Positions 29,726 through 40,588 of a stretch of DNA of 64,000 nucleotides are shown piece after piece (the stretch's first letter is position 1; each line of letters starts with the position of its first letter). The translations under genes and the position numbers were made by a program. The notes under the pieces are model-generated. The model did no database searches. It worked only from the letters and a program-made list of their open reading frames with translations, and was not told where the DNA came from. This DNA comes from Neoscytalidium dimidiatum (taxonomy: Eukaryota; Ascomycota; Dothideomycetes; Botryosphaeriales; Botryosphaeriaceae). Where the stretch lies: positions 2,356,001 to 2,420,000 of the forward strand of contig CM074701.1 in NCBI GenBank assembly GCA_037367355.1, written 5' to 3'.

Positions 29726-32381
29726 TCAAACAATCTCCCACCTCGCCAACCTCCCCACCGCCTCCCCCGCATTCCGCACAACGCAAACCCTCGCGCCCGC
29801 GTCCCCACCGACCCCCGCCCTCACCACCTCCACCAACCGCTTCAGCACCACGCTCCCCACAGCCGTCGCCCTGCCCTCCCCGAGATTGAAGTTCCCCGCC
29901 GTGACGAACCCGACCAGATCCTCCTCGCCGGGCACGGGCGGGTAGCCCTGCCTCCCCGGCCGCAGCGCCTCGTCATCCCCGGCCAGCAGGTTCGCCGCCA
30001 GGAAAGCGTGCTTGACGTGGTCGGCCGCATCCGGCGGAGGCGGCTTGCGCGGTAGGGACTTTGCCGCCTTCCTCTGCTTCTTCTCGGCCGGCTGCGAGGC
30101 TTGGGCGAGGAGGTCCAGCCAGCGGTCGCGGAGCGACTTGTCCTTGAGGGGCAGGCGGTAGATGCGGGCGCAGTCCTTGGGCGTGCCGCGGGCGAGCATG
30201 GTGACGCTGACGTTCGCGAGGGCGTTGTCGTCCATGTCTGTGATGGTGTTGTCGGTGTCGCGGGCGCTGAAGGCGTCGTCCGCGAGGGTCAGGGGGAGTT
30301 GGTAGAAGGGTGGGCGGTCCTCTGTCTGCGGGTTAGCATTATGAAGTGATTATCGTTAGTGTGGATTCGGGGAGGGTGATTGAGTTGGACGTACTTGGTT
30401 CAACGCCGCCACCACCGCCCTCTTGCAGCGCCTCCCAGTCACAGGCCCACCCCTTGCCCACCTCGCCTCTCCTGCCCTCCGCCAGCTGCAAGCTGTCGAA
30501 CTCGATCCTCCTCCCCCTCGGCCGCCTCTCCCACTCCTCCTTCCGCCGCCCGTTCTCCCGCTCGTTCCACTCCCTCCCCGCCTTCGTGCCTGGGAAGTCG
30601 GCCGGGAAGAACGGCACGCCGGCTTCGAACGCGAGCTGCCGCTTCTGGTTCAGCCCGCCCAGACGCACGTTCGCGCCCGTCGACAGCGGGTAGTACATCA
30701 GCGAGTTCCACACCGGGGAGACGCACTTCCACGGCAGGAGCAGCGTCCACGTTCCGCTGCCGGGGCCGGGCGTGCGCGTTGCGAACAGGAGCACCGGGAT
30801 GGCGGGATCGGTCGCGCGAGGCTCGGGGTAGGCGTTCGGCATCGCGGCCGCCTTGCGGCGGTTGATGGATTTCTGGCTGGGGAGGGAGCGCGAGGCATCG
30901 AGGCGCTTCTTGCGGCTGAAGAGGGATGGTGCGCCCTGCGTGCGGTCAGGGGCCCAGGTGGCCAGGGTGTTTACCAGGCGAGAGTGTGCCGCGCTGTCGG
31001 TGGGGATGTCGACGGTGCGGGGCGGGTGGTGTAGTCTAGGGTCCGAGATCTCGAAGCCTAGGACTGGATTGGCTGGGAGAGTGCCTAGGTTCGTAACAGG
31101 TGCGAGCTGCTTCCATATACTGCTCGGGCTACCGTCCGTGTCATCTGAAGCGATGGGCCATAGGACACCGCGCAGGGCTTCCGTCGCTCCTGGTCCAGTG
31201 ATCTCAATGCTACCAATCTCCCAACGGAGGTCTTCCATGGTGACTGGTGGGTTGAGCTTCCGGAATGCGTCCCACAGCTCTAGGAACGCTGAGGGATGGA
31301 TCCGTATCAATACGTGCCGCCTTTCCTTCTGCTTTGACGAAGCGCTACCGCCAGCTGCGTCCTCCATTTCCACGTCCTCTGTCTTTGGCTTTGCGCACCA
31401 GATCACCGTGACGGGTGCAATGGGCTTTGTGGGCCATCTGCCCTTCTCATACAGCCAGCCCTCCCATGTCCTGGCCCCATCTCTCCATTTCTGGCCCCTC
31501 TTGTCCCAATTATCAACGCCGAAATCTTTCAGGAGCTTTGCCAAGTGCTCTTCCGATCCATGCAAGCCAATGGTCGACATGTAGCTCATATCCCACGCCA
31601 CAGCTCCCCGAGCCGTACTTGCTCTATGCGTCGGGCGGTAGCACTTCATCGTCGGGGCCAACGGAATCGCGAACCGCCATAACGGCTCGAGTGGCGGCGT
31701 CATATGCGCGCGCTTCGCGTGATACATATGGGTCGGAAGCCACTGCTTGTTCATCTGGCGCTTGCGAAACTTAGCCGGCGGCGCGGGCGGATTCTTCAGC
31801 TTCGACGTCTTGACGCGGGCCTTCCTCGTGCTGATAGCATCGTCCACAGGCTCGACCCGCACATCCCCGTCCCTCTCCCCGTCCTTCTTCCCCTCCTCCC
31901 CCGTCCTCGCCCGCGCCTCCGCCTTCTTCCGCTCCCTCAAGACCCTCAACCGCTGCAACCTCCTCGCGTTCTCGACGCGCACCCACCTCCTCCCCTCGAC
32001 CTTCCGCCGCCGCGCCGTCACCGTCGGCGTGTTGTCCTCGGCCATCTCGCACGCCGCGCGGCGCCGCAGCCGCTTCGGCACGCGCTTGACGTTGTGGCTG
32101 GCCGTGCGGCGCCGCAGCTCCTTGGGCACGCTCTGGAAGGCGCGCGTCGTGAGCCCGTGGCGCGCCCGCCGCATGCCCGCCTCCAGCGCCCGGATCTCGA
32201 ACTCGCGCGCGCGCACGAACTTGTCCACGTCGACCTCGCCGTTGCGGAAGGCCGTGCCCGCGCTCTGCGTCGCGATCGCGCGGGCGTCGCGCGTCTTGGC
32301 GCGCTTGCGGTCGCGGCCATTCTGTGCCTGGGGTTTTGACGATGAGGAGGAAGCGGGCGGCTGTTTGCGTTTGTCCGCCAT
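29726..32381 (-). CDS. POP1: RNase P/MRP subunit Pop1
   Basis: Exons 30395-32381 and 29726-30321 (73-bp intron) give 860 residues. The N-terminus has the Pop1 domain: ARAIATQSAGTAFRNG, VDKFVRAREFEIRALE and the very basic RRRTASHNVKRVPKRLRRRA. The middle holds WLPTHMYHAKRAHM and the POPLD-type region (WDMSYMSTIGLHG). The C-terminal exon has FYQLPLTLADDAF and GFVTAGNFNLGEGRA near the end. Pop1 is the largest protein of RNase P and RNase MRP, needed for tRNA 5' maturation and rRNA processing in the nucleus. The acceptor was placed at ACAG/AGG to keep phase; the site a few bases upstream would break the frame. It is divergent from the WBP11-like gene. Confidence 0.93.
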
Positions 32382-39585: not shown

Positions 39586-39657
39586 GCCCCTTTAGCTCAG
39601 TGGTAGAGCGCGACACTAGTAATGTCGAGGCCATCGGTTCGACTCCGATAGGGGGCA
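39586..39657 (+). tRNA. tRNA-Thr (anticodon AGT)
   Basis: A 72-nt cloverleaf without intron. Acceptor arms GCCCCTT and AGGGGGC pair fully (one G-T); D-stem GCTC/GAGC; anticodon stem CGACA/TGTCG with loop CTAGTAA, so positions 34-36 are AGT and read ACU after deamination; T-stem ATCGG/CCGAT with loop TTCGACT; discriminator A. The A box lies in the D-arm and the B box is GGTTCGACTCC. Confidence 0.95.
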
Positions 39658-40436: not shown

Positions 40437-40450
40437 AAAAAAAAAAAAAA
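40437..40450 (-). terminator. Pol III terminator of the initiator tRNA
   Basis: T14 on the minus strand begins 9 nt after the discriminator base of the initiator tRNA, the expected position and form of an RNA polymerase III stop. It argues that the gene is a working transcription unit. Confidence 0.8.
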
Positions 40451-40459
40451 GGAAAGCAT

Positions 40460-40588
40460 TAGCTGCGAATGGTTTCGATCCATTGTCCTCCGGGTTATGA
40501 GCCCGGCGCTATTAAGGTTGTTAGTGAACCGTAACGACTGGTTCTGGACTGTTGAAATGACTTACCGCTTCCGCTGCGCCACGCAGCT
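40460..40588 (-). tRNA. Initiator tRNA-Met (CAT), split in the D-stem by an intron-like insert
   Basis: The two parts are 40566-40588 (23 nt) and 40460-40508 (49 nt). Joined they make a perfect 72-nt initiator: acceptor AGCTGCG/CGCAGCT with the A1-U72 pair special to eukaryotic initiators, D-stem GCGC/GCGC, anticodon stem CCGGG/CCCGG with three G-C pairs below loop CTCATAA, T-stem AATGG/CCATT, T-loop ATCGAAA (A54 and A60, as in initiators) and discriminator A. The order matches yeast tRNA-iMet arm by arm. The A box lies in the first part and the B box (GGATCGAAACC) in the second. Unusually, 57 nt interrupt the 3' strand of the D-stem between its third and fourth base. The Pol III terminator follows 9 nt downstream. 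Confidence 0.93.
40509..40565 (-). other. 57-nt spliceosomal-type intron inside the initiator tRNA gene
   Basis: Read on the minus strand the insert starts GTAAGT, has CACTAAC with a typical branch A about 13 nt before the end, and finishes AATAG. Its length and signals match the protein-gene introns of this window (many are 49-62 nt). A canonical eukaryotic tRNA intron would sit one base after the anticodon, where this gene has none. The longest T run inside is three, so it would not stop Pol III. The left border can slide by one base, since G occurs at both ends. Confidence 0.8.

Follow-up and report, generated by a model that had tools for sequence, protein, structure and literature searches.

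The question raised by this locus is whether an initiator tRNA-Met (iMet) gene whose D-stem is interrupted by 57 nt can be a working gene and, if so, by which machinery the interruption is removed. The introns of nuclear tRNAs are taken as the task of a dedicated endonuclease, and the only Pol III RNAs known to lose an intron through the spliceosome are, to our knowledge, oddities such as U6. The gene lies on contig C7 of the Neoscytalidium dimidiatum genome, in a stretch of 64,000 nucleotides that was analysed as a whole (the window), and is made up of the following parts:

40588-40460, minus strand: initiator tRNA-Met gene, whole, anticodon CAU
40566..40588, minus strand: 5' exon of 23 nt, tRNA positions 1-24, with the Pol III A box inside (from the sequence)
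40571..40581, minus strand: Pol III A box, TGGCGCAGCGG (from the sequence, by its consensus)
40509..40565, minus strand: intron of spliceosomal type, 57 nt, GTAAGT...CACTAAC...AATAG, separating tRNA positions 24 and 25 in the D-stem
40520..40524, minus strand: CTAAC, branch-site motif that starts 16 nt before the 3' splice site
40460..40508, minus strand: 3' exon of 49 nt, with the anticodon CAU, the T-arm and the 3' strand of the acceptor stem
40471..40481, minus strand: Pol III B box, GGATCGAAACC, intact (from the sequence, by its consensus)
40437..40450, minus strand: T14 run, presumed Pol III terminator, 9 nt past the tRNA 3' end

Initiator tRNAs are marked by A1-U72, A54, A60 and three G-C pairs in the anticodon stem. 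When the two exons are joined, a 72-nt tRNA with A1-U72, A54, A60 and G29-G31:C39-C41 is obtained, which ARAGORN calls as tRNA-Met(cat), in agreement with a first-pass annotation of this DNA; marks and cloverleaf are those of a functional initiator tRNA-Met gene. The T14 run and the GTAAGT, CACTAAC and terminal TAG signals of the insert had been described in the same annotation and were found where it had placed them. The position of the cut is ambiguous by 1 nt, since exon and intron both end in G; the cut may sit one base to the left in every gene described here, and the GT-AG register is the chosen reading. It had also been expected that an insert in the D-stem would break the tRNA fold, and this holds only in part: of the four D-stem pairs only 10-25 is lost, and the remaining three would still be able to form. 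In the ViennaRNA minimum-energy fold of the spliced molecule, the D and anticodon arms deviate from the textbook cloverleaf.

ARAGORN seeks introns in the anticodon loop only. At default settings it misses the unspliced gene, its call in the window being tRNA-Thr alone; in the comparison of the gene before and after removal of the insert, the unspliced form is given as a false tRNA-SeC. Rfam at the gathering score misses the gene as well, with the tRNA-Thr as its sole match in the window; at a relaxed threshold the unspliced gene reaches 22.1 bits, against a cut-off of 29. The tRNA-Thr(AGT) gene is intact and intronless (window positions 39586-39657); it is encoded on the opposite strand, with about 0.8 kb between it and the interrupted iMet gene. 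A POP1 gene, coding for a protein subunit of RNase P/MRP, is found in the same window (30339-32381), probably by coincidence.

Copy number had been named as the fact that would decide how the locus should be read. The genome searched comprises 43,759,583 bases in 40 contigs (one assembly). A Sec6 protein encoded at the end of the window gives its top match, at 93%, to an unnamed cluster, followed among named genera by Phyllosticta (83%), Aplosporella (82%) and Saccharata (76%); the families of these genera belong to the Botryosphaeriales (Dothideomycetes), the order to which protein similarity assigns the genome. A pattern covering the stretch from the anticodon loop to the T-loop of iMet, with two mismatches allowed, gave 11 matches genome-wide (15 in the reversed control), three of them exact: the window gene on C7 and one each on C4 and C3. 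The other eight have one or two mismatches, and their printed letters, judged without flanks, are unlike an initiator tRNA. BLAST with the whole iMet gene detected four loci, namely the same three and one on C12, and in 4/4 the insert lies between positions 24 and 25 (57 nt on C7, 56 on C4, 54 on C3 and 54 on C12). No uninterrupted copy was found genome-wide by either pattern search or BLAST; every copy found is interrupted, which favours function. The C12 copy (C12:1574907-1574958) looks like a decayed initiator gene, since GT is replaced by GC, the branch box by CACTAC and A60 by G, and the pair 4:69 has become a C-A mismatch.

Comparison of the three intact copies has been informative about the age of the insert, which is here judged from divergence between copies inside one genome. 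The genes on C7 and C4 have identical 72-nt exons, and their introns are 57% identical over the alignment (50% when shuffled); the C7-C3 and C4-C3 introns are 60 and 59% identical (shuffled, 50 and 52%). The exons, taken with three leader nucleotides, are 91% identical between C7 and C3, 89% between C4 and C3 and 89-99% over all three pairs, and the flanks only 44-60%. What is kept in the three introns is the GTANGY start, YACTAAY (with CTAAY 16 nt from the end) and AG; little is preserved beyond these splice signals. Near-identical exons around nearly randomised intron interiors point to old, functional splicing. Two proposals of the first-pass annotation, a recently disabled copy and a recent gain of the intron, find no support in this divergence. 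In addition, three two-sided compensatory changes separate the C3 gene from that of the window, at 6:67 and 7:66 in the acceptor stem and at 50:64 in the T-stem. The first two join the exons across the intron, so that selection appears to have seen the joined molecule.

These comparisons also bear on the possibility that the interrupted genes are pseudogenes, the intact tRNAs being encoded elsewhere and either missed or outside the assembly. Arm inserts in eukaryotic tRNA genes mostly mark pseudogenes, usually one of many synonymous genes, according to the part of a review that was accessible (PMC4090602); a decayed-looking copy does exist on C12, and only 63 of 1020 general tRNA candidates in this genome were scored. 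The argument of the review, however, concerns single members of larger sets, whereas here all copies found carry inserts, including the three exact iMet pattern matches and ten loci of four further families, detected by BLAST with joined exons and described below. Moreover, the iMet exons have not drifted like their flanks, and they have been kept, with compensatory pairs across the intron, while the introns diverged. We regard the pseudogene explanation as scarcely credible.

The feature extends beyond the initiator. A splice-signal pattern (GTAAG...CTAAY...B box) gave 12 matches, against 15 in the reversed control, and one of them is a true tRNA gene, Arg(CCG) on C2, with the insert GTACGT...CTAAT...GCAG after position 26. 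Searches that made no assumption about splice signals, and asked only for an A box and a B box spaced 76-106 apart, yielded 57, 20, 48 and 11 matches, mostly at chance level (37, 38, 49 and 32 in the reversed control). Among these 136 matches, five were recognised as interrupted genes: Trp_C1a, ArgCCT_C7a, ArgCCT_C7b, ArgCCG and ProAGG_C3. Longer sequence was inspected for nine of the matches, giving the four interrupted genes other than ArgCCG, one tRNA-His with an anticodon-loop intron and four chance-like matches; the remainder were judged from 80 printed letters each. The box searches missed two Trp and two Pro genes (presumably because of spacing), a third Arg(CCT) gene (split B box) and iMet (other B box).

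The four joined mature tRNAs, used as BLAST queries, matched 17 times, at 10 loci in all, and 10/10 are interrupted: Trp(CCA) 3/3, Pro(AGG) 3/3, Arg(CCG) 1/1 and Arg(CCT) 3/3. For two Trp genes and two Pro genes, discovery came in this way through exon similarity, with splice signals playing no part. Two Arg(CCT) genes are interrupted at 28/29, and the third (C1:1496178+) has no D-arm insert and carries GTAGGC...CTGAC...ACAG in the T-loop, at 57/58. In total, and leaving the C12 copy apart, 13 interrupted genes have been found on seven contigs, in at least five tRNA families; the number is a minimum, given a survey that worked from consensus boxes and their spacing. The inserts are located in the D-stem, just 3' of the D-stem, in the anticodon stem and, once, in the T-loop. 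As the 13 introns share descent within families they are not independent, and they represent six combinations of family and site:

iMet, 24/25
Trp, 24/25
Pro, 23/24
Arg(CCG), 26/27
Arg(CCT), 28/29
Arg(CCT), 57/58

An assembly or sequencing artefact has nothing that we found in its favour; an error could hardly put differing inserts at defined sites in 13 loci spread over seven contigs, and the probability of such an origin is negligible. A separate observation from the genome concerns contig C40 (308 kb), in which a mitochondrial genome of about 177 kb is apparently repeated, as tRNA matches recur along it at a near-constant offset; it is probably an assembly dimer. Its reading frames resemble those of a fungal mitochondrial genome with homing-endonuclease introns. 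A plastid origin of C40 was rejected because RuBisCO is absent and the reading frames look fungal-mitochondrial.

Removal of the insert alone was sufficient for ARAGORN to give the expected tRNA and anticodon in 13/13 genes: Met(cat) in three, Trp(cca) in three, Pro(agg) in three, Arg(cct) in three and Arg(ccg) in one. The ten non-initiator genes then still retain an intron of 11-38 nt in the anticodon loop, and each contains two classes of intron. Unspliced, four genes receive no call and seven are given a different identity or anticodon, and Pro(agg) is called for two Pro genes, but with a misplaced 68-nt intron; the intron was correctly placed in 0/13. After removal, standard pairs are formed at 91/91 positions in the acceptor stems, 65/65 in the T-stems and 49/52 in the D-stems. 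In its acceptor and anticodon stems the third Arg(CCT) gene is unlike the other two; even so, its acceptor is 7/7 Watson-Crick. A sliding-cut control, with shifts of up to 8 nt, had no power to discriminate, as most cuts off by a few bases also gave an ARAGORN tRNA call.

The inserts themselves, 51-64 nt in length, carry the signals of U2-type introns. GTRNGY is found at the start and AG at the end in 13/13, as at U2-type 5' and 3' splice sites, and the exon base preceding the intron is G in all 13. A CTRAY box lies 13-19 nt from the 3' end in 11 of the 13; when the interiors were shuffled, 2000 rounds gave 0.59 on average and never more than 4. The exceptions are ArgCCT_C7b, with TTAAC, and ArgCCT_C7a, with CTAAG. 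An introner-like common sequence was not found among the 78 interior pairs, those within families included (best z 1.9). The first-pass observation that the insert in the window is of the same size as local mRNA introns also proved sound: eight frame-joining candidate mRNA introns in the window measure 47, 50, 51, 53, 54, 57, 69 and 105 nt (that is, 47-69 nt in seven of eight), with branch motifs starting 11-25 nt from the 3' end. The search for these unconfirmed candidates itself demanded GTRNGY and CTRAY, and only their lengths and distances are informative. A group I or group II intron is ruled out by the length of the inserts, as compared with a catalytic core of hundreds of nucleotides.

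Ordinary Sen-type introns, which lie between positions 37 and 38, are present in this genome, even in the same Trp, Pro and Arg genes, but they differ from the inserts both in position and in sequence. In fact, the control set of 18 introns among 38 other tRNA genes of the genome (10-76 nt) contains none that starts with GTRNGY (0/18) and none with GT-AG (0/18), as placed by ARAGORN, which makes the control approximate because the program may put an end wrong by a few bases. An alternative view would treat the inserts as ectopic introns cut out by the Sen endonuclease or by a relative of relaxed specificity, which is the proposal made for the red alga Cyanidioschyzon merolae. Endonuclease-linked ectopic introns in the D-arm are described for this alga, along with nucleomorph ectopic introns of unknown removal, in the available portions of two papers (PMC4090602, PMC3978253), and a bulge-helix-bulge-like pairing (GGAAG/CTTCC) can be drawn in one of the three intact iMet copies, that on C3 (5 bp; 4 bp in another test). 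This pairing has a chance level of 8%; only 3 bp are obtained in the window copy (chance 43%) and none in the copy on C4. The test, which covered the three intact iMet genes, is itself weak, as only 2/12 ordinary introns of the genome scored well. Furthermore, recognition by the endonuclease predicts neither GTRNGY in 13/13 nor CTRAY at a near-fixed distance in 11/13, and the ordinary introns called here lack such signals. We consider removal by Sen very unlikely.

With respect to transcription, the A box is intact in 13/13 genes and the B box in 12/13, the exception being the T-loop Arg(CCT) gene, where the insert splits it. Runs of at least four T follow all 13 genes, within 20 nt in 11 of them, at about 33 nt in Arg(CCG) and at about 40 nt in ArgCCT_C7b, and the T-loop Arg(CCT) gene is followed by a T12 run despite its split B box. 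For 12 of the 13 genes, these three elements together suggest transcription by Pol III. Alternatively, the inserts could be spliced from capped Pol II host transcripts, from which RNase P and RNase Z would cut out the tRNA. This arrangement would avoid the need to splice an uncapped Pol III RNA and would account for the T-loop copy with the split B box. Against it stand the conserved Pol III elements, together with the fission-yeast U6 RNA, a Pol III transcript that carries an mRNA-type intron according to the accessible text of PMC10484740. A Pol II origin therefore appears improbable.

Spliceosomal removal was weighed in the first-pass annotation beside an unusual endonuclease and a disabled copy, and was favoured there together with a recent intron gain; it has gained support from the U2-type signals kept between copies of the initiator gene and found likewise in four other tRNA families. 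We assign a probability of roughly 0.88 to the view that the insert in the window is a U2-type spliceosomal intron in a working initiator gene, and a member of a larger group of such introns spanning at least five families. The best reading of the sequence data is that Pol III pre-tRNAs are matured by the spliceosome. The signals kept in the introns are those read by U1, by U2 and by the 3' splice-site step, and, as far as we know, the tRNA endonuclease reads none of them. In the mechanism that we propose, Pol III would use the internal A and B boxes and stop at the T run, yielding a pre-tRNA of about 140-200 nt. U1 would bind GURNGY and U2 the (UA)CUAAY box, and the spliceosome would take out a lariat of 51-64 nt. 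The tRNA body could fold after this removal, and its ends would be trimmed by RNase P and RNase Z. In the case of Trp, Pro and Arg, the Sen endonuclease and a ligase would then remove the second, anticodon-loop intron. We infer this order, with the spliceosome acting before Sen, because Sen is said to use the tRNA body for positioning its cuts, with an interaction between Sen54 and the D-arm (PMC4090602).

Several known systems resemble this arrangement in part. For example, the U6 snRNA gene of Schizosaccharomyces pombe is also a Pol III-made non-coding RNA gene with a spliceosomal intron (PMC10484740, accessible text). However, U6 is a part of the spliceosome, and its intron is thought, in the same text, to derive from reverse splicing near catalytic nucleotides, whereas the hosts here are tRNAs of at least five families. 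No U6 intron was found in the N. dimidiatum genome, in which the sole U6 match above cut-off spans the whole model without interruption. Fungal nuclear rDNA provides another case of spliceosomal introns in a non-coding RNA gene transcribed by a polymerase other than Pol II (PMC11782384, as excerpted), although the host is rRNA and not tRNA. In C. merolae and in the nucleomorphs of cryptophytes and chlorarachniophytes, introns occur in the D- and T-arms of tRNA genes, sometimes several per gene (PMC4090602, PMC3978253, available portions). As far as those portions go, these introns are linked to bulge-helix-bulge motifs and the tRNA endonuclease or, in Guillardia, measure 3-24 nt and are removed in an unknown manner; the inserts of N. 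dimidiatum, by contrast, are of 51-64 nt with GT, branch and AG signals. Archaeal non-canonical introns may also be several per tRNA and occupy D- and T-arm positions (PMC4090602, same portion), but they are cut by the archaeal bulge-helix-bulge endonuclease and no spliceosome is involved.

With regard to its distribution, the Met4 and Met9 tRNA genes (CAT) of Aspergillus niger are both 72 nt long and intronless, and if either of them is the initiator, the feature is not shared by Pezizomycotina at large; the table that lists them, in the part of the paper available, is silent on this point (PMC6108506). A pattern for the iMet exon-intron junction gave no matches in viral contigs and two in prokaryote contigs, both by chance. 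In the open-access literature, as judged by titles and the starts of abstracts, no account of tRNA genes with spliceosomal introns was recognised. Such genes may have escaped notice because of the ARAGORN failures described above and because the search for non-canonical introns in tRNAscan-SE 2.0 is described, in the text available, as part of its archaeal mode (PMC8450103). Judging from the gene sequences, what is new here is the host gene class (tRNA), the spread of the introns and their apparent indispensability.

This last point is of biological significance. Since all iMet and all Trp genes found are interrupted, the spliceosomal step looks essential; the spliceosome appears to be needed for both tRNAs, and no way around it was found in the genome. 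It is probable that translation in this fungal lineage depends on the spliceosome via tRNA, every iMet and Trp gene found, together with those for Pro(AGG), Arg(CCG) and Arg(CCT), being spliced as Pol III transcripts, and several of them passing through two unrelated machines. The substrates of both the spliceosome and Sen would be natural material for studying the order of pre-tRNA processing. If this reading is true, tRNA genes can gain spliceosomal introns and keep them for a long time. Finally, splicing would be directly coupled to translation initiation in this fungus, and splicing capacity would set the supply of initiator tRNA.
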